DNA from: Parabacteroides sp.
Lineage (GTDB): Bacteria; Bacteroidota; Bacteroidia; Bacteroidales; Tannerellaceae
Length of the DNA stretch: 64,000 bases
NCBI GenBank assembly: GCA_017937385.1
Contig: JAGBDR010000089.1
Location: 19,604-83,603 of the forward strand
Direction of reading: 5' to 3'
Shown in pieces: positions 7,985-20,025 of the stretch (position 1 is its first letter; every line of letters starts with the position of its first letter). The translations under genes and the position numbers were made by a program. Under the pieces are notes generated by a model. That model saw only the letters and a list, made by a program, of their open reading frames with translations. It searched no databases and was not told the origin of the DNA.

Positions 7985-8018
7985 GGAGTACCGCCTGTTT
8001 CAGGACTTGCGGTACTCC
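7985..8018. terminator. Bidirectional hairpin between hdeD-like and AraC genes
   Basis: A perfect 10-bp stem, GGAGTACCGC (7985-7994) with GCGGTACTCC (8009-8018), and a 14-nt loop. It overlaps the last codons of the AraC gene and could stop transcription from both sides, although neither side has a long T-run. Confidence 0.6.
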
Positions 8019-8908
8019 ATCGGAGAAATCCCCATGTGCTTCTTAAAGAATTTCCCGAAAGTCGACTGGTCGGAAAAATGAAGGATGTCCGCTACTTGCT
8101 GGACAGTCGCCTGTGGGGCTTTCAAAAGGATTTTCGCCTCCACGATCAAGGCATCATCGATCCATTTGTTGGCAGACTTGCCGGTCAGTTCTTTCAAGAT
8201 CAATGACAGATATTGCGGCGTGATAAACAGCTTCTCAGCATAAAAAGTGACCACATGCTGTTCCTTGCAATGTTCAAACAGCAATTGCAGGAATTGTTCG
8301 AACAACTCCTCCTTGCGGGAAAGCGTCGGCCGGATCAAATGGTCTTTCTTCCCCAACATGATATTGCCTAACTCCAACAGGAAACCAATGAAAGCATTCT
8401 GCACCAACTCTTTCTGATAGAAATGAGTGCGTTCCCTCATCTTATCCCGTATCACCTGCATACAACCGGCCAGTTTGGCGGTTTCCTCCGGTTCCAATTC
8501 AGTACAAGGGTTCTTCCGAACCTCCATATAGTTCGCAATCGCTTGAGGGCGTTTAGCACCACCCGGATTACAATCGTCCAAAAACTCCTTGGAAGCAATC
8601 AGCAAACAGCCTTTAAAATCATCACTGACCCTGTCAAGCTGAAAGGCATGCGTAGGCATGATCATTATAAAACTATTCGGTTTGACCACATAAGCGACAT
8701 AATCCAAATGGACCTCGAGCGTTCCTTCAAAAGTCAATACCATCAAAAGCGCATTCAACCGCATCGGAGCAAAACGCTCAGGCGAGCCGGGATCTCCGAA
8801 ATCCATACCTCCATCCAAATCTGCAATTGAGAAAATATCCTGAAAACTATCACGAAAAGTAATGCCTCTATTCAGATCCGCCAATTCAATCAAAGGAAGT
8901 TTCTCCAT
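8000..8908 (-). CDS. AraC-family transcriptional regulator
   Basis: 302 residues. The N-terminal 170 residues form a cupin-like sensor domain (LNALLMVLTFEGTLEVHLDYVAYVVKPNSF is typical of Bacteroidetes members). The C-terminal 100 residues hold two helix-turn-helix motifs (FITPQYLSLILKELTGKSANKWI and VQQVADILHFSDQSTFGKFFKKHMGISPMEYR), the hallmark of AraC DNA-binding domains. The effector cannot be told from sequence. It is divergent from the TetR gene that opens the steroid/RND operon, across 222 bp, so it may act on that operon; this is inferred from position only. A -7 box, TACCTTTG, lies at 8944-8937. Confidence 0.9.
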   Translation of the reverse strand: MEKLPLIELADLNRGITFRDSFQDIFSIADLDGGMDFGDPGSPERFAPMRLNALLMVLTFEGTLEVHLDYVAYVVKPNSFIMIMPTHAFQLDRVSDDFKGCLLIASKEFLDDCNPGGAKRPQAIANYMEVRKNPCTELEPEETAKLAGCMQVIRDKMRERTHFYQKELVQNAFIGFLLELGNIMLGKKDHLIRPTLSRKEELFEQFLQLLFEHCKEQHVVTFYAEKLFITPQYLSLILKELTGKSANKWIDDALIVEAKILLKAPQATVQQVADILHFSDQSTFGKFFKKHMGISPMEYRKS

Positions 8909-9130
8909 CTTTACCTATTTATTAATCATGCATTTGCAAAGGTAAACATTTTTTCAATAACCAGAAGAATGTTTCATTTTTTACCAATGAATAACGGTTT
9001 TTTAAGAATACAAACCCGCCTATTTATTCGTTTTCGACTAATTCCGTAACAGAATAAACCTTTTTAGTTTACCGGATTAAACAGAACTTTGCAATTCTCA
9101 ATCGTCGTTAAAAAAGCAATCGCAAAATCA

Positions 9131-9742
9131 ATGACCATCAAAGAACAAATACTGTCAACAGCATTCGACTTATTTTCCGAACAAGGGATCAAAAGTGTCA
9201 GCATGGACGACATCGCTCATAGCACAAGTGTCTCCAAACGGACGCTTTACGAACTCTTTGAAGACAAGGAAACGTTGCTGACAGCATGTATCAACCAGAG
9301 CTATACAAAAATGAAGTCATTCATAAAACAACTCGAATCCGAGCCGATAACGGCGCTCGATGTCGCGTTGCTTTTCTATGAAGAGCTCATGAAACGCCCC
9401 CGCTGGTTCAACCGGAAATTCTATGATGACCTGAAACGCTACCCGAAAGCCTGGCAGAAAACGGAAGAAGAAAAATCCCGGTTCCTGAAAAAATGCACCC
9501 AATTATTGGTACGAGGAGCAAAAGAAGGTGTTTTCCTATCGAATATCAACGTTGAAATTGTAGCTTTGCTGGCGAAAGAGTTAGCGCAGATGATCCGTCC
9601 GTCTAACGCTCTCTCCAACCATTCCGCATCTGAAGTGTTCAATACGATTCTGTATTCCTTCCTCCGGGGGATTTCCACAGAAAAAGGCATTGCCATTTTA
9701 GACCGCTATTTATTGAAATATACACAAAAGCTTTTAGACTGA
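9131..9742 (+). CDS. TetR/AcrR-family regulator of the downstream RND operon
   Basis: 203 residues from the ATG at 9131 (an upstream TTG at 9089 is rejected). The N-terminal TetR_N helix-turn-helix is clear: KEQILSTAFDLFSEQGIKSVSMDDIA, then STSVSKRTLYELFEDKETLL. The C-terminal ligand-binding part is all-helical and variable. Members next to RND genes usually repress the pump until a substrate binds, here perhaps a bile acid or steroid given the downstream enzymes (inference). It is the first gene of a nine-gene run, 37 bp before the TolC gene. A weak -7 (GAACTTTG, 9084-9091) precedes it. Confidence 0.9.
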   Translation: MTIKEQILSTAFDLFSEQGIKSVSMDDIAHSTSVSKRTLYELFEDKETLLTACINQSYTKMKSFIKQLESEPITALDVALLFYEELMKRPRWFNRKFYDDLKRYPKAWQKTEEEKSRFLKKCTQLLVRGAKEGVFLSNINVEIVALLAKELAQMIRPSNALSNHSASEVFNTILYSFLRGISTEKGIAILDRYLLKYTQKLLD

Positions 9743-9779
9743 ACAAACGGTCTTAGTAACAATCAAATTACCTATTTAA

Positions 9780-11162
9780 ATGAAACAACTCTTCATGACA
9801 AAAAAAGTGATGTGGGCAGTGGCCTTGCTGCTTTCCTCTTTGGCTTTCACCTCCGCTAAAGCCCAGGACACGCTCGTTCTCGACATTGGGAAAGCGCTTG
9901 AGATCGCGCTAAGCGAAAACCCCACGGTAAAAGTGGCCAATAAAGAAATCCAGAAGAAAAAATATGCGCAGAAAGGTTCCTATGCCGCCCTGTTTCCCCA
10001 AGTCGGCTTTGCCGCCGACTACAACCGGACCCTGAAAAAACAGGTGATGTATATGGACGGTTTCGACATGGGAAGTACCGAAATACCCGGCATGGAAGAT
10101 ATGCCAAGCATGGATGAAGGAATCGAAGTGGGACGTGACAACAACTGGAACCTCGGTTTCAGCGCCTCGATGCCGATCGTCAATGCCGCTCTTTGGAAAA
10201 GCCTCAGTATTTCGGCCGTCGATGTGGAACTGGCCGTCGAACAGGCACGTTCCTCCAAAATCGCAATGACCAGCCAGGTAAAGAAAGGATATTACAGTGT
10301 CCTTCTTGCCAGCGATTCCTACCGGGTATTCAAAGAAAGCTATGACAACGCGATGGAGAACTACCTGGACATCAAACGTAAGTTCGAACAGGGGACTGTT
10401 GCTGAATACGACCTGATACGCGCCAATGTGACCGTAAAGAACAGCGAGCCTAATATGTTACAGGCAAAAAACGCGCTGGTTTTTGCCAAATGGCAACTAA
10501 AGGCATTATTGGGCATGGACCTGGACATCCCCATCGAATGCGAAGGGCAACTGACCGACTTCGAAAAGGATCTATTCGGTGATTTCCTCTCGACAGACAC
10601 GACCTTGGCAAACAACACAGACTTGAAACAAATCGATTTGCAGGCCAAGCAACTGGAAAAGACGTTGACCATGCAAAAGTTCGACTATTTGCCGACACTG
10701 TCACTTACCGGTCTGTATCAGTGGACTGCCATGAACAACGATTTCAAGTTCAAGGACTACAGGTGGAACCCCTACTCGATGGTCGGTGTCTCGCTTTCCA
10801 TTCCGCTCTTCTCCGGCGGCAGCAGATTTTATAAAATCAAACAGACAAGAAACTCAATCGAACAATTGAGCCTGCAAAGAGAAGACACACAACGGAACCT
10901 GCAACTGGCAATCAGGCAGTGTATCGACAACATGAACACCTGCGTCAAACGGTTCGACGCTTCGCAGAAAGGAGTGGAACAGGCCCGACGGGGATATATG
11001 ATCTCCCAAAAGCGTTATGAGACAGGTGCCGGAACCCTACTCGAAATGAACGACTCGGAACTGGCGCTGACACAGGCCAAACTGAACTTCAACCAGGCCA
11101 TTTACGACTACATGGTAGCAAAAGCTGACTTGGAAAAAGTGTTGGGCCAACAAGAGTTTTAA
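9780..11162 (+). CDS. TolC-family outer membrane efflux protein
   Basis: 460 residues. A signal peptide (hydrophobic stretch AVALLLSSLAF, cleavage near AKAQ) is followed by two OEP repeats of about 190 residues, each with long helices. Telling segments are ALEIALSENPTVKVANKEI and RFDASQKGVEQARRGYMISQKRYETG. It forms the outer membrane channel of the tripartite RND pump encoded by the next two genes. An acidic, Met-rich insert (PGMEDMPSMDEGIEVG) near residue 100 is unusual and lies in an expected extracellular or barrel loop. Confidence 0.93.
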   Translation: MKQLFMTKKVMWAVALLLSSLAFTSAKAQDTLVLDIGKALEIALSENPTVKVANKEIQKKKYAQKGSYAALFPQVGFAADYNRTLKKQVMYMDGFDMGSTEIPGMEDMPSMDEGIEVGRDNNWNLGFSASMPIVNAALWKSLSISAVDVELAVEQARSSKIAMTSQVKKGYYSVLLASDSYRVFKESYDNAMENYLDIKRKFEQGTVAEYDLIRANVTVKNSEPNMLQAKNALVFAKWQLKALLGMDLDIPIECEGQLTDFEKDLFGDFLSTDTTLANNTDLKQIDLQAKQLEKTLTMQKFDYLPTLSLTGLYQWTAMNNDFKFKDYRWNPYSMVGVSLSIPLFSGGSRFYKIKQTRNSIEQLSLQREDTQRNLQLAIRQCIDNMNTCVKRFDASQKGVEQARRGYMISQKRYETGAGTLLEMNDSELALTQAKLNFNQAIYDYMVAKADLEKVLGQQEF

Positions 11163-11200
11163 AGTATAAATCATCGACATAGAATAAAAAACATCACAAC

Positions 11201-12226
11201 ATGGAAACAAGTAAAAAACAACGATTCATATCACTCCTCCTCTTCCCTTTATTGCTGTCCTGTTCCGGGGAAAAGAAAGATTCAGAACAACCGGAAACCG
11301 GCAGCGACAAGGCCATCGTAAGAATAGAGACCGTTTCGGCACAGGAGGTAGAGCAAATCAGTGAATTTACAGCGACCGTCGAAGCCAACATCTCCAACAA
11401 CATCGCCCCGCAAACCCCGGTGCGTATCGAGAAACTGTTTGCGGAAATCGGCGATCACGTAAAAGCCGGCCAACTCCTCGTCAGGATGGACGAGACAAAC
11501 CTCAAACAAACCCGCATACAACTGGACAATCAGGAATTGGAATTCAAGCGTATCGACGAACTATACAAAGTAGGCGGTGTTTCCAAATCGGCCTGGGACG
11601 CACAGAAAACACAGTTGGACATAAGCCGTGCGACCTACAAGAATTTGCAGGAGAACACCCAGTTGTTGAGCCCGGTCAGCGGTATCGTCACCGCCCGCAA
11701 TTATGACAGCGGCGATATGTATAGCGGAGGCTTGCCGGTTTTTACCGTAGAACAGATCCGTCCGGTCAAATTACTGATCAACGTATCCGAAAGTCTCTTC
11801 ACCCAAGTAAAAAAGGGGAAAGAGGTTGATATACGGTTGGACGTATACGGCGATGAAGTATTCAAAGGAAAAGTCAGCCTGGTCTATCCGACTATCGATC
11901 CGAACACACGCACATTCCCGGTCGAGGTCAAAATCGACAATAACGACGAACGTGTCCGTCCGGGAATGTTTGCCCGCGTGACGATCGGTTTCGGAACACA
12001 AAACCATGTGGTGGCTCCGGATCTTGCCATCGTAAAACAATCCGGCGCGGGAGACCGCTATATATATGTATATAAAGACGGCAAAGTTTTCTACGAAAAA
12101 GTAGAGTTAGGACGTCGTATGGGGAATAAATATGAAGTCATTTCGGGTGTAAACAGCGGCGACCAGGTAGTCGTATCCGGACAGAGCCGCCTGAACAACG
12201 GAATGGAAGTAGAAATCGAAAAATAA
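11201..12226 (+). CDS. RND efflux periplasmic adaptor (membrane fusion lipoprotein)
   Basis: 341 residues. The lipobox LLLSC puts the lipidated cysteine at residue 21. A barrel-sandwich/lipoyl domain (PVRIEKLFAEIGDHVKAGQLLVRMD), a short helical hairpin, the second lipoyl half (NTQLLSPVSGIVTARNYDSGD) and beta-barrel and membrane-proximal domains (PVEVKIDNNDERVRPGMFARVTIGF) follow in the family order. It bridges the RND pump and TolC. It lies 38 bp after TolC and 12 bp before the pump gene. Confidence 0.94.
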   Translation: METSKKQRFISLLLFPLLLSCSGEKKDSEQPETGSDKAIVRIETVSAQEVEQISEFTATVEANISNNIAPQTPVRIEKLFAEIGDHVKAGQLLVRMDETNLKQTRIQLDNQELEFKRIDELYKVGGVSKSAWDAQKTQLDISRATYKNLQENTQLLSPVSGIVTARNYDSGDMYSGGLPVFTVEQIRPVKLLINVSESLFTQVKKGKEVDIRLDVYGDEVFKGKVSLVYPTIDPNTRTFPVEVKIDNNDERVRPGMFARVTIGFGTQNHVVAPDLAIVKQSGAGDRYIYVYKDGKVFYEKVELGRRMGNKYEVISGVNSGDQVVVSGQSRLNNGMEVEIEK

Positions 12227-12238
12227 GAGATAAACACT

Positions 12239-15200
12239 ATGAGCTTATATGCAACAGCGGTAAAAAAACCGGTCACAACCGCCCTCGTTTTCGTGGCGAT
12301 CGTGATTTTCGGGCTTTTTTCATTGACCCGGTTATCGGTGGACCTGCTGCCGGAGATCGAGACAAACACGATCATGGTCATGACCTCCTATGCCGGTGCC
12401 AGTGCCGCGGATATCGAAATGAACGTCTCCAAACCGCTGGAGAACGTGCTGAACAGCGTCAGTGACCTGAAGCACATCACATCCCAGTCGCGTGAAAACA
12501 TCTCGATCATCACTCTCGAGTTCGACTATGGCACGGATATCGACGTGGCGACCAATGACGTGCGCGACAAACTGGACGTCGCCGAACCGATGCTTCCGGA
12601 CGATGTAGACAATCCCATTATCTTCAAATTCGGGACAAACGATATTCCGATTATCATCCTGTCGGTTACAGCGAAAGAGAGCACGAACGCCCTGTACAAA
12701 ATCCTGGACGACAAAGTGTCCAACCCGCTGGCACGTATCAGCGGCGTAGGGGCGGTTTCCATATCCGGTACGCCGACACGTGAAATACAGGTCTATTGCG
12801 ATCCGTACAAACTGGAAGCATACGGGGTTTCGATCGAGGGCATATCCGCAATCATCGCACAGGAGAACCGGAACACACCGGGCGGTAGCGTGGACATCGG
12901 TTCCAACGCTTACGCGCTCCGCGTACAGGGTGAATTCACGGATGCACATCAGATGGACAATCTGGTGATCGGCCATCAGGAAAACAAGACGGTCTACCTG
13001 CGTGACGTTGCCCGGATTGAAGACAGTATCGAAGAACGCGCCCAGGAGACTTACAACAATGGCAAGAAAGGCGGTATGATCGTTATCCAGAAGCAATCGG
13101 GAGCCAACTCGGTGAATATCGCCAAGAAGGTTCACCAGAAGCTACCGGAAATCCAGGAAAGCCTTCCTTCAGATGTCAAGTTAGGAGTGATCCTGGATAC
13201 TTCCACTAACATCCTGAATACGATCGACAGTTTGAAAGAGACCATTTTCATCACCTTTTTCATTGTTATGTTAGTGGTATTCGTGTTCCTCGGACGGTGG
13301 AGGGCGACGTTTATCATCATCCTGACCATTCCGATCTCGCTGATCGCCTCGTTCGCCTATTTGCTCGCTTCCGGCAATACCCTGAATATTATCTCGCTGA
13401 GTTCACTGTCCATCGCGATCGGTATGGTTGTGGATGACGCGATCGTGGTGTTGGAAAACATCACAACCCACATCGAAAGAGGCAGTGCGCCCAAACAGGC
13501 GGCCGTACATGCGACAAACGAGGTGGCGATCTCCGTCATCGCCTCTACCCTGACCATGTTGGCAGTGTTCCTGCCCCTGACCATGGTGACAGGTATGGCG
13601 GGTATCCTGTTCAAACAGTTAGGCTGGATCGTCAGTATCATCATGATTGTCTCGACGGTCGGCGCTTTGACACTGACTCCGATGTTGAGCTCGCAACTGC
13701 TCAGGCTGAACCCGCAAAAAGGCCGTTTGTACACCTTGTTCTTCACTCCGATCGAAAAGGCATTGGACGCTCTGGACCAGGGTTACTCCCGTTTCCTCTA
13801 TTGGGCGGTACGCCACCGGAAGACAGTCATATCCGGTGCCACTTTGATCTTCGCGGGAAGTATGCTATTGGTTCCGACTATCAAGACGGAATTCTTCCCG
13901 ACTCAGGACAACGCGCAGATCAGTGTCCATATCGAGCTTCCGGTCGGTACCCGCCAGGATATCACCCGCAAACTGGCACTGGAAATCGACGAACTGTTCC
14001 GGCAGAAGTATCCGGAGATAAAGACCAGCAACTTCACCGAAGGGCAGGCCGACTCCGATAACACCTGGGCACAAATGAGTAACAACGGGACGCATATCAT
14101 CGATTTTTACATCAATATGCTGAGTGTGGGCGACCGCGAACGCGGCATGATCGAAATCTGCGAAGAGATGCGTAAAGATCTGGCCAAATATCCGGAAATC
14201 AAAACATTCAAGGTCATTGAAGGCGGGCAGGAAGAAGGTATGGGCGGACAGAATGCCGTAGACATCGAGATTTACGGCTTCGACTTCAGCCGGACCGATG
14301 CCGTAGCCGCCGAACTGGCCGAAAGGATGCGTAAGGTGAAAGGTTGTTCGCAGGTCAACATCAGCCGCGAGGACTATATCCCCGAATACCAAGTCGATTT
14401 CGACCGAGAAAAGTTGACGATCAACGGACTGAACATCACAACGGCGGCAATGGCCTTGCGTAACCGCATCAACGGATCGACCGCTTCCAAATATCGTGAA
14501 GACGGCGACGAATATGACATAAAGGTACGTTACGCGCCCGAATTCCGCCAGTCGGTAGAAGATATCGAAAATATCCTGGTCTATAACAATGCCGGTCAGG
14601 GAATCCGCATCCGCGACCTGGGCAAAGTGGTAGAACGCATGACCCCTCCGACCATCGAGCGCAAAGACCGCGAACGTATTATTACCGTATCGGCGGTAGT
14701 CGGAAAAGGCGCAGCCATGAGCGATATCGTGACAGCCGCCCGCAGCCAGTTGAAAGAGATGGATATCCCGTCGGATGTCAGTTGGCAGTTGGGAGGAACC
14801 TACGAAGACCAGATGGACACGTTCTTCGACCTGACAATCCTGATGATCCTGATCATCATCTTAGTCTTTATCGTAATGGCGGCCCAGTTCGAATCGCTGA
14901 CAGACCCGTTCGTGATCATGTTCTCCATTCCCTTTGCCTTCACCGGTATTATCCTGGGGCTGTCCGTCACGCAGACTCCCTTGGGTGTCATGGCGCTGAT
15001 CGGCTTGATTATGTTGATGGGTATTGTCGTGAAGAACGGTATCGTGCTGATCGACTACACGATCCTCTGCCGGGAAAGAGGAATGGGAATCCTGACCGCA
15101 GTCGTAACAGCCGGAAAATCCCGCCTTCGTCCGGTATTGATGACCACCTTGACGACCGTATTGGGAATGATCCCGATGGCAGCCGGGACAGGCGAAGGTT

Positions 15201-15358
15201 CGGAAATGTGGCGGTCGATGGGTATGACAGTCGCTTGGGGACTATCGGTATCAACCCTGATTACCTTGATAATCGTACCGGTCGTATATAGTGTGTTTGC
15301 CGGAAACGGAATCCGCCGCAAACGCCGTAAAATGTCAAGAAATCGTATCGATTGCTAA
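12239..15358 (+). CDS. RND-family efflux pump, inner membrane subunit
   Basis: 1,039 residues, the normal size for AcrB/MexB-type HAE1 or related pumps. Both halves show the expected 1+5 membrane segments with large periplasmic loops. The proton-relay pair is visible in TM4 as GMVVDDAIVVLENI. The N-terminal KPVTTALVFVAIVIFGLFSL and the motif FDYGTDIDVATNDVRDKLD are family-typical. It exports amphipathic compounds driven by protons. Placement ahead of steroid-reducing enzymes suggests bile acids or steroids as substrates (inference). The C-terminus is short and very basic (RRKRRKMSRNR). Confidence 0.95.
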   Translation: MSLYATAVKKPVTTALVFVAIVIFGLFSLTRLSVDLLPEIETNTIMVMTSYAGASAADIEMNVSKPLENVLNSVSDLKHITSQSRENISIITLEFDYGTDIDVATNDVRDKLDVAEPMLPDDVDNPIIFKFGTNDIPIIILSVTAKESTNALYKILDDKVSNPLARISGVGAVSISGTPTREIQVYCDPYKLEAYGVSIEGISAIIAQENRNTPGGSVDIGSNAYALRVQGEFTDAHQMDNLVIGHQENKTVYLRDVARIEDSIEERAQETYNNGKKGGMIVIQKQSGANSVNIAKKVHQKLPEIQESLPSDVKLGVILDTSTNILNTIDSLKETIFITFFIVMLVVFVFLGRWRATFIIILTIPISLIASFAYLLASGNTLNIISLSSLSIAIGMVVDDAIVVLENITTHIERGSAPKQAAVHATNEVAISVIASTLTMLAVFLPLTMVTGMAGILFKQLGWIVSIIMIVSTVGALTLTPMLSSQLLRLNPQKGRLYTLFFTPIEKALDALDQGYSRFLYWAVRHRKTVISGATLIFAGSMLLVPTIKTEFFPTQDNAQISVHIELPVGTRQDITRKLALEIDELFRQKYPEIKTSNFTEGQADSDNTWAQMSNNGTHIIDFYINMLSVGDRERGMIEICEEMRKDLAKYPEIKTFKVIEGGQEEGMGGQNAVDIEIYGFDFSRTDAVAAELAERMRKVKGCSQVNISREDYIPEYQVDFDREKLTINGLNITTAAMALRNRINGSTASKYREDGDEYDIKVRYAPEFRQSVEDIENILVYNNAGQGIRIRDLGKVVERMTPPTIERKDRERIITVSAVVGKGAAMSDIVTAARSQLKEMDIPSDVSWQLGGTYEDQMDTFFDLTILMILIIILVFIVMAAQFESLTDPFVIMFSIPFAFTGIILGLSVTQTPLGVMALIGLIMLMGIVVKNGIVLIDYTILCRERGMGILTAVVTAGKSRLRPVLMTTLTTVLGMIPMAAGTGEGSEMWRSMGMTVAWGLSVSTLITLIIVPVVYSVFAGNGIRRKRRKMSRNRIDC

Positions 15359-15390
15359 AAAGAACAAACAACAAGAAGAAATACAGGAAT

Positions 15391-15684
15391 ATGAAAGCTA
15401 TATTTGTATCATTTAATCAAGCATATTACGAAATGATCCTGAATGTGATGGACCGGAACAACATCCGAGGCTTTACATACTGGAACGAAGTTCAGGGACG
15501 TGGAAGCAAAACCGGCGATCCGCATTATGGAAATCACGCCTGGCCGACACTGAACTCGGCAATCTTGGCGATGGTCGAAGACGAGAAAGTCGATCACTTT
15601 CTGGAAATACTTCATCAGATGGATCAGAAGACAGAAGCGCAAGGATTACGCGCTTTTGTCTGGAACATCGAAAAAACAATTTAA
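15391..15684 (+). CDS. Small PII-like protein linked to RND operon
   Basis: 97 residues from the ATG at 15391. An alternative upstream start at 15352 would overlap the pump gene and is less likely. The sequence begins KAIFVSFNQAYYEMILNVMDRNNIRGFTYW and continues with a GRGSKTGDP loop and a VDHFLEILHQMD helix. This order (beta-alpha-beta, loop, beta-alpha-beta) fits the GlnB/PII ferredoxin-like fold seen in small proteins next to Bacteroidetes RND genes. No uridylylated Tyr or ATP-binding consensus is evident, so ordinary PII function is not implied. Confidence 0.6.
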   Translation: MKAIFVSFNQAYYEMILNVMDRNNIRGFTYWNEVQGRGSKTGDPHYGNHAWPTLNSAILAMVEDEKVDHFLEILHQMDQKTEAQGLRAFVWNIEKTI

Positions 15685-15692
15685 AGAATAGA

Positions 15693-16394
15693 ATGGACGA
15701 TCTTTTTAACATACTTATTTTCTGCAAAGATTATAGCCAGGGAGTTATCATCCAAGACGCTCTGCAAACCGCCGGATGTGCCTCACAAGTATTCGACCGG
15801 GAAGAGGATGCATACGAGGGTTTCCTTTCCGGGAAATTCACTACCTGCATCATCGACCACGATATAGACAGGAAAGAGACACAGGATTTGATAACCCTGA
15901 TCAAGAGTTCGGAACGCTTCATCCCGGTTCTCTTCCTGTGTGAACATCCGACAAACAAAGAAATCGCATGGCTGTTCTCACACCATGCCGATGATGTGAT
16001 ACGCAAACCTTTCGACACTGATATCCTGCAAGCCCGGATCAAGGCAGTGCAAAGCCGTTACCATCTTCAATACAAACAAGAGGTAAAAACCTATCTGTTC
16101 GGAAAATTCAGGTTCAACCTGCCCAAACAACTCTTGTCCATCGAAGACAAAACGACCAAGCTGACAACCAAAGAGGCCGACTTGCTCACGCTGTTGTGCC
16201 AGCACGCAAACCAGATAGTAGACAGGATGTACACCTTGCAAGTCATTTGGAAAAGCGACAATTATTTCAATGCCAGAAGTATGGATGTCTACATCACCAA
16301 ATTGCGCAAACTATTGCAAGATGATCCGACCATCAAAATCATAAATGTTCACGGGAAAGGGTATAAACTATCAACACACGAAAATGACAACTGA
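15693..16394 (+). CDS. Atypical OmpR-type response regulator
   Basis: 233 residues. A receiver-like domain (1-115) is followed by a winged-helix Trans_reg_C domain (130-230), recognised from KEADLLTLLCQHANQIVDRMYTLQ, SMDVYITKLRKLLQDDPTIKIINVHGKGYKL. The phosphoacceptor Asp55 (CIIDHD) and Lys105 (IRKPFD) are present. The N-terminal acidic pair is replaced by FCKD and the switch Thr/Ser by Cys83 (VLFLCEH), so phosphorylation may be weak or absent. No kinase gene is adjacent. It overlaps the next gene by 11 bp, so it is part of the steroid-enzyme unit and a likely regulator of it. Confidence 0.88.
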   Translation: MDDLFNILIFCKDYSQGVIIQDALQTAGCASQVFDREEDAYEGFLSGKFTTCIIDHDIDRKETQDLITLIKSSERFIPVLFLCEHPTNKEIAWLFSHHADDVIRKPFDTDILQARIKAVQSRYHLQYKQEVKTYLFGKFRFNLPKQLLSIEDKTTKLTTKEADLLTLLCQHANQIVDRMYTLQVIWKSDNYFNARSMDVYITKLRKLLQDDPTIKIINVHGKGYKLSTHENDN

Positions 16395-17145
16395 ATATTT
16401 CTCCTGGTTTCAAATCATAATGGCCGCCATCGCCGCCATTGTCTTCATAGCCCTTTACTTTGTCGAAGCCGGCTATGGAATGCTGTTCGACAAAAAATGG
16501 GGATTCCCGATCCCGAACAAGATTGCCTGGATCTGTATGGAAGCGCCGGTCTTTATCGTCATGTTCCTATTATGGCACGGATCGGAACGGCAGTTTGAGA
16601 CAGTGCCGCTCCTGATCTTCCTGTTCTTCGAACTGCACTATTTCCAACGCTCTTTCATTTTTCCTTTGCTGATAAAAGGTAAAAGCAAGATGCCGGCCGG
16701 TATCATGCTGATGGGAATCACCTTCAACCTCCTGAACGGCTATATGCAAGGGGAATGGATTTTCCATCTGGCACCGCAGGACATGTACACGGACAGTTGG
16801 TTGCACAGCCCTCAATTCATCATCGGGACACTCCTGTTTTTCACCGGCATGGCCATCAATATCCAGTCGGACCATATTGTCCGCCACCTCAGAAAGCCCG
16901 GCGACACCAACCATTATCTGCCGAAAAAAGGCCTGTTCGACTATGTGACATCAGCCAACTATTTCGGGGAAATCGTGGAATGGTGCGGATTTGCTATCCT
17001 GACCTGGAGCGCAAGCGGAGCGGTTTTCGCCTGGTGGACATTTGCCAACCTCGTGCCTCGCGCAAACACCATCTATCATAAATACAAAGCGATGTTCGGC
17101 GACGAACTGGGAAACCGGAAACGGGTAATTCCTTTTATATATTAA
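16384..17145 (+). CDS. 3-oxo-5-alpha-steroid 4-dehydrogenase family enzyme (5AR)
   Basis: 253 residues from the ATG at 16384, with six or seven membrane segments. The C-terminal half has the steroid 5-alpha-reductase signature: R-H-L-R-K-P-G, K-K-G-L-F-D-Y-V near 182, N192-Y193-F-G195-E196 (NADPH contact), E199-W200, and NLVPRA near 222. Glu53 and the E-x-H-Y-F-Q-R segment at 83-89 occupy the places of known active-site residues. The family reduces the delta4 bond of 3-oxo steroids to the 5-alpha form with NADPH. Homologues in gut Bacteroidetes make 3-oxoallo bile acids. It overlaps the response regulator by 11 bp and is followed after 21 bp by the flavin reductase. Confidence 0.9.
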   Translation: MTTEYFSWFQIIMAAIAAIVFIALYFVEAGYGMLFDKKWGFPIPNKIAWICMEAPVFIVMFLLWHGSERQFETVPLLIFLFFELHYFQRSFIFPLLIKGKSKMPAGIMLMGITFNLLNGYMQGEWIFHLAPQDMYTDSWLHSPQFIIGTLLFFTGMAINIQSDHIVRHLRKPGDTNHYLPKKGLFDYVTSANYFGEIVEWCGFAILTWSASGAVFAWWTFANLVPRANTIYHKYKAMFGDELGNRKRVIPFIY

Positions 17146-17166
17146 ACGAATAACTCACAATTGGAT

Positions 17167-18393
17167 ATGGAAAAAGAATCTGTATTGTTCACTCCCGGCA
17201 AAATCGGGCCGCTGACCCTGAGGAACCGGACGATACGGGCCGCTGCATTTGAAAGCATGTGCCCGGGAAACGCACCTTCCGATATGTTGTACGACTACCA
17301 TAAGTCGGTTGCCGCCGGCGGGATCGGCATGACGACATTGGCATACGCGGCCGTCACGCAAAGCGGGCTTTCTTTCGAACGCCAACTCTGGATGCGCCCG
17401 GAAATTATCCCCGGAGTCAAACGGATGACCGATGCGATACACCAAGAAGGGGCAGCCGCCTCCATACAGCTTGGACATTGCGGTAACATGTCTCACAAAA
17501 ACATCTGCGGATGCACGCCGATCTCCGCATCCAGCGGTTTCAATATCTATTCCCCCACTATTGTCCGGGGAATGAAACCGTCTGAAATCACAGCTATGGC
17601 AAAAGCATTCGGACAAGCCGTCCACCTGGCACGCGAAGCCGGTATGGACGCAGTGGAGATACATGCCGGCCACGGCTATCTGATCAGCCAGTTCCTTTCT
17701 CCTTACACCAACCACCGGAAAGACGAATATGGAGGCAACCTGCAAAACCGGATGCGCTTCATGAAGATGTGCATGGCCGAAGTGATGAAAGCTGCCGGTC
17801 AGGATATGGCCGTACTGGTCAAGATGAATATGCGCGACGGCTTCAAAGGCGGGATGGAACTGGACGAGACGCTCGAAGTGGCCCGCACCTTGCAGGACGA
17901 ATGTGGGGCACACGCTTTGGTACTCAGCGGCGGCTTTGTCAGCCGTGCCCCAATGTATGTGATGCGAGGTTCCATGCCGATTCATACAATGACACATTAT
18001 ATGCCTTTCGGCTGGTTACCTATCGGAGTCAAAATAGCCGGGCGGTTCATGATTCCGTCTGAACCGTTCAAAGAGGCTTACTTCCTGGAGGACGCCTTAA
18101 AGTTCCGGGCGGTGCTGAAAATGCCTCTTGTCTATGTAGGCGGACTGATTTCGCGCGAAAAAATCGACGAAGTACTGAACGACGGTTTCGAGTTTGTGAG
18201 TATGGCACGCGCCCTGCTGAATGACCCGTCATTCGTAAACAAGATGAAAGCAGACGAACATGCCCGTTGTGACTGCGGACATAGCAACTATTGTATCGCC
18301 CGCATGTATTCTATCGAAATGGCATGCCACAAACATATTCAGAACTTGCCCAAAAGTATTGTCAAAGAAATAGAGAAATTAGAATACAAATAA
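17167..18393 (+). CDS. OYE-family NADH:flavin oxidoreductase, probable 3-oxo-delta4 5-beta-reductase (5BR)
   Basis: 408 residues from the ATG at 17167. The single TIM-barrel Oxidored_FMN domain is clear: FTPGKIGPLTLRNR at the N-terminus, IQLGHCGN near 100, and HAGHGYLISQFLSPYTNHR at 166-184 with substrate-binding His166 and His169. A GG-L-I-S-R phosphate-binding segment lies near 325. The C-terminal thioredoxin-reductase-like half of BaiCD/BaiH is absent. A cysteine-rich tail (Cys368, 370, 376, 387) resembles an iron-sulfur segment, but its spacing differs from the usual C-x2-C-x3-C-x11-C. Next to a 5-alpha-reductase and an SDR, the likely activity is reduction of 3-oxo-delta4 bile acids or steroids to 5-beta products (inference). 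Confidence 0.82.
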   Translation: MEKESVLFTPGKIGPLTLRNRTIRAAAFESMCPGNAPSDMLYDYHKSVAAGGIGMTTLAYAAVTQSGLSFERQLWMRPEIIPGVKRMTDAIHQEGAAASIQLGHCGNMSHKNICGCTPISASSGFNIYSPTIVRGMKPSEITAMAKAFGQAVHLAREAGMDAVEIHAGHGYLISQFLSPYTNHRKDEYGGNLQNRMRFMKMCMAEVMKAAGQDMAVLVKMNMRDGFKGGMELDETLEVARTLQDECGAHALVLSGGFVSRAPMYVMRGSMPIHTMTHYMPFGWLPIGVKIAGRFMIPSEPFKEAYFLEDALKFRAVLKMPLVYVGGLISREKIDEVLNDGFEFVSMARALLNDPSFVNKMKADEHARCDCGHSNYCIARMYSIEMACHKHIQNLPKSIVKEIEKLEYK

Positions 18394-18395
18394 AC

Positions 18396-19247
18396 ATGGA
18401 AAAAGGATTAGCCATCATAACCGGTGCCGACGGAGGCATGGGACAAGTAATCACGGCTGCTCTTGCCCAAGAGGGCTATCCGGTGATTATGGCTTGCCTC
18501 AATCCGGAAAAGGCCGCTCCCATATGCCGCCGAATCCAGCAAGAGACCGGTAACCCGCAGGTCGAAGTACGGGAAGTCAACCTTGCCTCCCTCTCATCCG
18601 TAAACCATTTCACCGGCCAGCTATTAAAGGAAGGGCGTCCCGTCAGCCGCCTGATGAACAATGCCGGAATCCTGACAACTCCGGTACGCCGGACCGAAGA
18701 CGGATTGGAGACCATCGTAAGTGTCAACTACGTGGCGCCCTATATGCTCACCCGCCAGTTATTACCGCTGATGCAACCGGGAAGCCGCATCGTGAACACG
18801 GTGTCCTGCACGTATGCCATCGGCCGGCTCGAACCGAATTTCTTTGAGAAAGGCAGGAACGGACGCTTTTTCCGCATCCCGGTCTATAGCAATACCAAAC
18901 TGGCGCTGCTCCTGTTCACCCAGGAACTGGCCGAACGGCTCCGGGACAAAGGCATCACCGTCAATGCGTCGGACCCGGGAATCGTCAGTACGGACATGAT
19001 CACGATGCAGGCTTGGTTCGACCCGCTCACCGACATCCTGTTCCGCCCTTTCATCAAGACACCGGCCCAGGGTGCGGCAACCGCCATCCATCTGGCACTT
19101 TCAGACGAGGCGAAAGACAAAAACGGATGTTGCTACGCCAATTGCAAAAAACGAAATGTGTCGGAACGCATCCGGCATCATGCGCAACAAAAACAATTGT
19201 GGGATGATACGGAAGCCCGGCTCCGACAAAAAGGCTTCCAATTCTGA
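18396..19247 (+). CDS. Short-chain dehydrogenase, probable 3-beta-hydroxysteroid dehydrogenase
   Basis: 283 residues from the ATG at 18396, 2 bp after the flavin reductase. Classical SDR features are the cofactor loop TGADGGMG (9-16), NNAG (88-91), Asn111, Ser137, and the catalytic Tyr164-x3-Lys168 (VYSNTKLA). The C-terminal 30 residues are basic and could pack near the membrane (inference). In the bile-acid context the expected reaction is 3-oxo to 3-beta-hydroxy, giving iso or isoallo bile acids. Similar SDRs act on retinol-like or other alcohols, so the substrate is not proven. It is the last gene of the operon; no strong terminator follows. Confidence 0.8.
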   Translation: MEKGLAIITGADGGMGQVITAALAQEGYPVIMACLNPEKAAPICRRIQQETGNPQVEVREVNLASLSSVNHFTGQLLKEGRPVSRLMNNAGILTTPVRRTEDGLETIVSVNYVAPYMLTRQLLPLMQPGSRIVNTVSCTYAIGRLEPNFFEKGRNGRFFRIPVYSNTKLALLLFTQELAERLRDKGITVNASDPGIVSTDMITMQAWFDPLTDILFRPFIKTPAQGAATAIHLALSDEAKDKNGCCYANCKKRNVSERIRHHAQQKQLWDDTEARLRQKGFQF

Positions 19248-19326
19248 ACCGGCATATCGTTTCAATTCCATAAGCATGGAACACAAATTTCATGCCTATG
19301 GATTTGAAAATTCATGCCGACGGGAT

Positions 19327-19357
19327 TTTGCAGATATGAATATAAATCGTACCTTTG
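19327..19357 (+). promoter_or_regulatory. Promoter of the L25 gene
   Basis: TTTG (19327-19330), a 19-bp spacer and TACCTTTG (19350-19357) give a textbook Bacteroidales -33/-7 pair. The leader to the ATG at 19441 is about 75 nt. Confidence 0.8.
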
Positions 19358-19440
19358 CACCGCTTTTAACCCCCGTACGTGTGATGGGAAATTAGAAAGC
19401 ATAAACATCTAATTTTGAGTAACACAAAAATTAAAACAAA

Positions 19441-20025
19441 ATGAAGACATTTCAATTAGAAGGAAAATCAAGAGAAGTAGCCGCTACTTCTGCAGACCAG
19501 AAGAGAGCTTTGAAGGCTATGCGTAAAAACAACGAAATTCCTGCTGTACTGTACGGCGGTGAAAAAGTATCTCACTTCTCAATCACAAAAGACAGTGTCC
19601 GTAACTTGGTTTACAGCCCTGAAATCTTTGTCGTAGAACTGACAATCGACGGCAACAAGACAATGGCTATCGTAAAAGACATCCAGTTCCAGCCTGTAAC
19701 GGATGCGATCCTGCACATGGACTTCCTGGAAGTATCGGAAAACAAACCGGTAGTCATGGAAGTTCCGGTTGTCCTGGAAGGTCACGCCGAAGGTGTTAAA
19801 GCCGGTGGTAAGCTGAACTTGCAGATGAGAAAGCTGAAAGTAAAAGCTCCTTACACAGCTATTCCTGAGAAACTGAATATCAATGTGGATAACTTGGGAT
19901 TAGGCAAGACTATGCAGGTTGGCGCATTGCATTTCGAAGGTCTTGAACTGATGAACGCCAAGAACGCTGTTGTTTGCGCTGTTCAGTTGACTCGTGCCGC
20001 TCGTGGTGCTCAGGCTAAAGCATAA
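19441..20025 (+). CDS. rplY: 50S ribosomal protein L25/CTC
   Basis: 194 residues, so the long CTC form. The N-terminal L25 5S-rRNA-binding beta-barrel (KSREVAATSADQKRALKAMRKNNEIPAVLYGG) is followed by the TL5/CTC C-terminal beta-domain (HMDFLEVSENKPVVMEVPVVLEG). It binds 5S rRNA in the central protuberance. Codon use is less GC-rich than in flanking genes, as expected for a highly expressed ribosomal gene. It is followed by a hairpin terminator and then pth, an order common in Bacteroidales. Confidence 0.96.
   Translation: MKTFQLEGKSREVAATSADQKRALKAMRKNNEIPAVLYGGEKVSHFSITKDSVRNLVYSPEIFVVELTIDGNKTMAIVKDIQFQPVTDAILHMDFLEVSENKPVVMEVPVVLEGHAEGVKAGGKLNLQMRKLKVKAPYTAIPEKLNINVDNLGLGKTMQVGALHFEGLELMNAKNAVVCAVQLTRAARGAQAKA

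Follow-up and report, generated by a model that had tools for sequence, protein, structure and literature searches.

A predicted Parabacteroides operon that joins an RND efflux pump and regulators to steroid/bile-acid A-ring enzymes

We analyzed a 64,000-nucleotide stretch of a Parabacteroides sp. genome (assembly GCA_017937385.1, contig JAGBDR010000089.1, forward-strand positions 19,604 to 83,603; the whole stretch is referred to below as the window) and found a row of nine genes that places an RND efflux pump, a PII-like protein and two regulators together with three predicted enzymes for processing the A ring of steroids and bile acids. We think that this locus is probably a steroid/bile-acid response operon that couples the processing enzymes to the pump. 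The parts themselves are known; what appears to be new is their conserved union. An open-frame check found nine intact frames, all on the + strand, spanning positions 9131 to 19247 in the order TetR-family regulator, TolC-like channel, periplasmic adaptor, RND pump, PG0541-family protein, RprY-like regulator, steroid 5-alpha-reductase (5AR), OYE-family flavin reductase and short-chain dehydrogenase (SDR), with successive spacings of 37, 38, 12, 32, 8, -11, 21 and 2 bp. The negative value reflects the start codon of the 5AR gene (ATG at 16384), which lies inside the regulator gene so that the two overlap by 11 bp. The coordinates, gaps and family searches thus bear out the sequence-only reading of this DNA, which had described a nine-gene, same-strand row with gaps of 2 to 38 bp or overlaps, and the row is more than a chance arrangement because its gene order is kept across Parabacteroides. 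The source genome (G000; 3.73 Mb in 128 contigs) belongs to this genus and is close to P. massiliensis, the 5AR of which is 94% identical to that of the window.

The short gaps and a promoter scan both point to a single transcription unit that would end at the SDR gene, as the only Bacteroidota-type promoter match in the region from 8909 to 19440 is a single site (two overlapping matches; 19327..19357, + strand) just ahead of rplY, which starts 193 bp beyond the SDR gene, a position that likely marks the end of the operon. Several results of the same kind count against this view. The promoter scan of 50 mononucleotide shuffles gave a mean of 0.56 sites and a largest value of 3, a sigma-70 scan found 10 sites compared to a shuffle mean of 13.0, and terminator-like sites numbered 24 compared to a shuffle mean of 13.7, with several of them on the + strand within genes. 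The promoter scan also fails to pick up the promoter of the operon itself, and the single site that it does report is unexceptional relative to the shuffles, so that it is weak proof of a single transcript.

The linkage between pump and enzymes recurs within the genus. Among 38 Parabacteroides genomes searched, 5AR was found in 20, rplY in 36 and the pump in 20 (80 to 100% identity, E <= 1e-250, the window's own genome included). In 18 of the 20 pump-carrying genomes, the pump is directly beside 5AR or OYE, a term that here allows for an intervening PG0541, regulator or single small gene. Of the other two, G004 retains the remnant of a deletion that has brought parts of the RND and OYE frames together, and G020, interrupted by a contig edge, carries the pump on one contig and the enzymes on another. 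The deletion in G004 (locus L090) took the end of the RND gene, PG0541 and the start of OYE, leaving both frames incomplete. We observed two forms of the row, pump-PG0541-(regulator)-5AR-OYE-SDR and, in the distasonis group, pump-PG0541-(regulator)-OYE-SDR2 without 5AR, in which a different SDR (SDR2) takes the place of the window-type SDR. SDR2 is present in 14 of the 38 genomes (E <= 1e-70) and lies at the rplY site in 13 of these, none of which has 5AR. A 185- to 191-amino-acid gene of unknown family occurs between PG0541 and the regulator in L011, L012, L014 and L116, and between PG0541 and 5AR in L013; its carriers are the goldsteinii/gordonii group and PH5-46.

Other genomes of the genus speak against a strict association. 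Seven of the 38 keep the enzymes at the rplY site without a pump (G011, G019, G021, G024, G027, G029 and G035), so that coupling between pump and enzymes is not obligatory, and in G009 OYE-SDR is apart from pump-regulator-5AR. A tree of OYE sequences groups 27 genes from this row or site into a single clade (support 100/98), within which the pump-less rows are scattered; here, G020 carries a "nopump" label on account of its contig edge, and G009 on account of its OYE being apart from the pump. The backbone of this tree is unresolved and does not fix the number of events. Repeated loss of the pump would be the simplest reading of the pump-less rows, because the pump also occupies this site in G241, a genome of a different genus within the family. 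Six more pump-less genomes have the enzymes elsewhere (G008, G016, G026, G033, G034 and G036), and G025, also pump-less, carries an incomplete 5AR gene where a contig ends. The stretches fetched from the pump-less genomes G010, G017, G028 and G032 showed no enzymes, with the contigs of G010 and G032 being too short to judge and OYE not having been searched genome-wide. The parts of the split row in G009 are on different contigs, one with pump-regulator-5AR and the other with OYE-SDR-rplY (L123, L094). In G034, the sequence ahead of 5AR-OYE-SDR at locus L122 (7023-9515) holds a different adaptor (24% identical to that of the window) together with a pair of short RND-like frames; this may be another pump-enzyme neighborhood that has decayed.

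For a view beyond the genus, we used the best 80 of 164 5AR relatives from one scan of named genomes, a set from which records near the window's genome may be omitted. Pump genes are upstream of 5AR in 7 of 8 Parabacteroides-titled loci in this set that have at least 8 kb of upstream sequence, and in 0 of 50 such loci outside the genus; a general occurrence of the arrangement in Bacteroidota was rejected on this count. Also outside the genus, OYE follows 5AR in 55 of the 66 loci that extend 1.6 kb downstream, and both OYE and an SDR-type match follow it in 39 of the 59 that extend 3.6 kb. The loci from Odoribacter, Butyricimonas, Alistipes and Coprobacter include 5AR-OYE-SDR2-SDR rows with two different SDRs, which suggests that Parabacteroides lineages retained one or the other. 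Loci of other Bacteroidales with two SDR-type genes after 5AR-OYE are L018, L036, L055 and L063.

The pump module, for its part, is widespread in Bacteroidales. All 20 pump loci fetched from outside the genus (62 to 80% identity) have TolC, adaptor, RND and PG0541 genes in order, and TetR was detected in 13 of them; 5AR, OYE and SDR were beside the pump in none of the 20 fetched stretches, two of which (L164 and L167) extend less than 2 kb beyond PG0541. The TetR-TolC-adaptor-RND-PG0541 order of this module is that of the window, whose row differs by the addition of 5AR, OYE and SDR. Because G241 has AraC-TetR-TolC-adaptor-RND-PG0541-rplY with no enzymes between pump and rplY, the enzymes probably entered an operon in which the pump was already present, and the G241 layout looks ancestral. 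The same layout, the enzyme-free pump loci outside the genus and the seven pump-less Parabacteroides rows would also fit the chief rival explanation, in which a cassette of steroid enzymes came by chance to lie downstream of a general efflux operon already in place and is expressed from the promoter of that operon, the pump plays no part in steroid handling, and vertical inheritance explains the conserved gene order. We regard such hitchhiking as less likely, as none of the 20 pump-carrying Parabacteroides genomes shows the pump away from 5AR or OYE, and the pump remains linked to OYE both in rows that have 5AR and SDR and in rows that have SDR2 but no 5AR.

Since we saw no genome of the genus with the pump apart from the enzymes, we favor some functional tie between them, and a joint role in processing and export is reasonable because the linkage is real, many genomes of the genus share it, and the genes seem to be transcribed as a unit. 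A mutual dependence of pump and enzymes everywhere was rejected, since each occurs without the other. The sequence-only reading had proposed a detoxify-and-export or signal-making system, to be refuted if related genomes had no such linkage. This reading is partly supported. The linkage holds within the genus, with the pump beside 5AR or OYE in 18 of 20 genomes, and was found in no locus outside it; the 50 outside 5AR loci, the 20 outside pump loci and the seven pump-less rows count against the reading.

The pump itself is a tripartite RND system, as genes for a channel, an adaptor and an ACR_tran pump are adjacent on the + strand: a TolC-like outer membrane channel (9780..11162; OEP E 1.6e-60), a periplasmic adaptor of the HlyD/RND_mfp type (11201..12226; RND_mfp above cut-off) and an RND inner-membrane pump (12239..15358; ACR_tran E 2e-256). 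They are followed by a PII-like, transporter-associated protein (15391..15684, + strand) that belongs to the PG0541 family (NF045581, 126 bits; cut-off 45), with a weak match to the Pfam P-II model and only weak matches to solved structures (E of 0.48 or more). Inspection by eye showed that the pump orthologs of B. ovatus (G359) and B. salyersiae (G333) adjoin gene starts resembling histidine-utilization genes and rpoA/rplQ. As a lead only, this neighborhood may correspond to that of the bile-induced BT2685-2689. In B. thetaiotaomicron, some RND pumps are reported to be induced by bile or required for bile tolerance, and BT2792-2795 is reported to be critical for the latter (PMC11078008, PMC10994844, PMC12596196; here and below, the literature is cited from the excerpts consulted). 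A point on the other side is that the window pump could not be tied to a named B. thetaiotaomicron bile pump, orthology not being proved.

The three enzyme genes match the Bacteroidota bile-acid A-ring cluster, in which 5AR is followed by OYE and SDR. The 5AR (16384..17145, + strand) is a member of the SRD5A family, scoring above the Steroid_dh cut-off (E 2.5e-44) and matching PDB 7c83 (E 5e-61) and human SRD5A2, 7bw1 (E 3.5e-42), among solved structures. It keeps both the aligned Glu and the aligned Tyr, which we take to be the active-site residues. The OYE-family flavin reductase (17167..18393, + strand; Oxidored_FMN E 2e-53) is a candidate 5-beta-reductase (5BR). Its residues H166, H169 and Y171 are kept in 86 of 87 aligned rows, the remaining row having a gap, and Cys 370, 376 and 387 are also kept in 86 of 87 rows, compared to only 58 for Cys 368; the protein may contain a 4Fe-4S site. 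It shares the OYE barrel with these three residues with BaiCD and other OYE-type 3-oxo-delta4 reductases, and differs from BaiCD in its length of 408 amino acids, compared to 642 positions in the BaiCD model. Its matches to NCBIfam models, including mycofactocin OYE and BaiCD, are far below cut-off, and an identity as BaiCD proper was rejected (NF041087, 184 bits; cut-off 825), leaving an assignment to the OYE family only. The SDR (18396..19247, + strand; adh_short E 2e-29) is a candidate 3beta-hydroxysteroid dehydrogenase (3beta-HSDH).

This trio is already known from the literature, since reviews describe a 5AR disruption, a gene cluster and an indirect pathway. P. merdae converts 3-oxo-delta4-lithocholic acid (3-oxo-delta4-LCA) in a 5AR-dependent manner, disruption of its 5AR prevents formation of alloLCA derivatives, and the 5AR gene is grouped with genes for an NADH:flavin oxidoreductase and a predicted 3beta-HSDH (PMC10382948), while the indirect pathway is described as consisting of 3alpha-HSDH, 5BR, 5AR and 3beta-HSDH (PMC9645264). 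Judged by its families, the window trio could convert 3-oxo-delta4 compounds to iso-allo or 5-beta products. To call it a complete reducing set, as had been done from the sequence, is too strong, because a start from LCA or deoxycholic acid also requires a 3alpha-HSDH, and the candidate for that step, the distasonis-type SDR2, was not found in the window's genome in a search at E <= 1e-70. A review table places P. merdae under 5AR and 3beta-hydroxysteroid dehydrogenase and P. distasonis under 3alpha-hydroxysteroid dehydrogenase (PMC12789469); as the tabulated entries fit the distribution of SDR and SDR2, they suggest that SDR is the 3beta enzyme and SDR2 the 3alpha enzyme. The OYE and SDR families are broad, and the RND pump does not reach the cut-off of any of the 20 listed NCBIfam models, so that one might also think of a multidrug pump accompanied by enzymes for the reduction of enones or sterols of plant or dietary origin instead of bile acids. 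We consider this improbable, given that the reported substrates of SRD5A enzymes are 3-oxo-delta4 steroids (PMC7815742) and that P. merdae acts on 3-oxo-delta4-LCA, as described above.

The predicted TetR-family regulator (9131..9742, + strand; TetR_N E 1e-12) is divergent from an AraC-family regulator gene (8000..8908, - strand; HTH_18 E 1e-17) that was absent from the sequence-only reading, and the 222 bp between them form a promoter region common to both. A putative TetR operator, (CC)GTAACAGAATAAACCTTTTTAGTTT(AC), is at 9044..9072 (+ strand), upstream of a poor -7-like element, GAACTTTG, at 9084. We found the 27-letter operator pattern (9046-9072) with at most one mismatch in all 18 loci with TetR, G241 included, and degraded to 5 to 7 mismatches in all 4 loci without TetR, of which G006 keeps the pump and G019, G024 and G035 are pump-less; we derived the pattern by visual inspection of the very loci compared, a set that does not include G007, G022 and G030. 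Since the element is retained in the loci that have TetR and degraded in those that do not, the comparison supports control of the unit by TetR through this putative site. The element (pattern 9044-9070) is single-copy in its own genome at up to 3 mismatches. Two observations argue the other way: the palindrome core alone, with 1 match in the window, is not significant (64 of 100 shuffles also match), and TetR is missing in G006 and did not turn up in the stretches fetched from G007, G022 and G030, although all four genomes retain the pump. A second element, GTTTCATTTTTTACCAAT (8971..8988, + strand), is a putative AraC site, its assignment to AraC being a guess. With a pattern drawn from the compared sequences themselves, it has 0 to 1 mismatch in 19 of 22 loci and 2 to 4 in PH5-46, G024 and G035, and it matches once in the window, compared to a mean of 0.06 in shuffles and a match in 6 of 100. 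An AraC homolog is present in 17 of 31 rplY-anchored Parabacteroides loci, some of which are short stretches.

Profile comparison of the window TetR returned Mce3R, MtrR and AcrR among the structure matches (E 6e-10 or weaker), all covering the N-terminal DNA-binding part and some extending further. The MtrR-mtrCDE system of Neisseria gonorrhoeae shares the logic of a TetR regulator with an RND pump and is a works-like analogue only; MtrR is a weak match to the window TetR (E 7e-8 to 9e-8, profile positions 2-140). The mtrCDE operon is not known to contain 5AR-, OYE- or SDR-type enzymes. MtrR, which belongs to the TetR family and represses an RND pump, is reported to bind progesterone, estradiol and testosterone (PMC10850145).

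The second regulator of the row (15693..16394, + strand), which combines a Trans_reg_C domain with a weak receiver match, has RprY as its best NCBIfam model (NF051850, 230 bits) and does not reach the cut-off of 370; together with its degenerate receiver, this led us to reject an identity as ordinary RprY. Phosphorylatable receivers have an acidic pair, an acceptor Asp, a Ser or Thr and a Lys. The Ser/Thr at the conserved position is absent in all 12 rows aligned, the acceptor Asp is lost in 4 and the Lys in 2, and the window protein, which retains both Asp and Lys, does not have the full set. Compared to the genome's own RprY, the DNA-binding domain of the window regulator is 67% identical (53 to 67% across the 12 rows), and the stretch that we take to be the recognition helix is identical, whereas the receiver is only 30% identical and has lost conserved residues. 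RprY also adjoins a kinase-like gene, while no kinase gene is beside the operon regulator. From these features, the protein is probably a phosphorylation-independent relative of RprY, and it could bind RprY-like sites. In each of the 10 comparisons in which it was measured, its gene showed the lowest conservation within the row.

In the mechanism that we infer, which extends to the inducer, the pump substrate, the single transcript, joint action and the OYE and SDR reactions, TetR on its dedicated operator and the divergent AraC would control one transcript carrying the RND pump, its PII-like partner, the RprY-type regulator and the A-ring processing set. Bile acids or steroids would relieve TetR and perhaps engage AraC. 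The OYE (5BR) would interconvert 3-oxo-5beta and 3-oxo-delta4 forms, the membrane-bound 5AR would convert 3-oxo-delta4 to 3-oxo-5alpha forms, and the SDR would reduce the 3-oxo group to 3beta, giving iso-allo products, while the pump would lower the cell load of substrate, reactive enone intermediates or products. A more ambitious version, which we think unlikely, is a dedicated make-and-export system, in which host steroids or bile acids relieve TetR, the enzymes make flat iso-allo forms, and the co-transcribed pump with a PII-like gauge secretes them, so that the maker would be protected and the gut loaded with compounds toxic to Gram-positive rivals; here, a kinase-free RprY mimic would tie the locus to the RprY stress regulon.

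The closest known system is the Bacteroidota 5AR-5BR-3beta-HSDH cluster of P. merdae and others (Honda laboratory, via PMC10382948), which has the same three enzyme types in the same genus and differs in that the account, in the excerpt consulted, mentions no RND pump, PII-like protein or adjoining regulators. No published description of the pump-enzyme union was found in a literature search that included excerpts of PMC11722256, PMC10382948, PMC9645264 and PMC12789469, the primary P. merdae paper, in which neighboring genes may be shown, being outside the search. Bile-acid forms related to isoalloLCA are reported to affect gut immunity. At low micromolar levels, isoalloLCA is reported to inhibit Gram-positive pathogens such as Clostridioides difficile (PMC10382948), and how producing Bacteroidota sense, tolerate and release these compounds is unexplained in the excerpts examined. 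The conserved operon brings induction, conversion and export within reach of joint experiments at a single locus, and it raises the prospect that making bile acids or steroids and exporting, or surviving, them may be jointly controlled in these bacteria.

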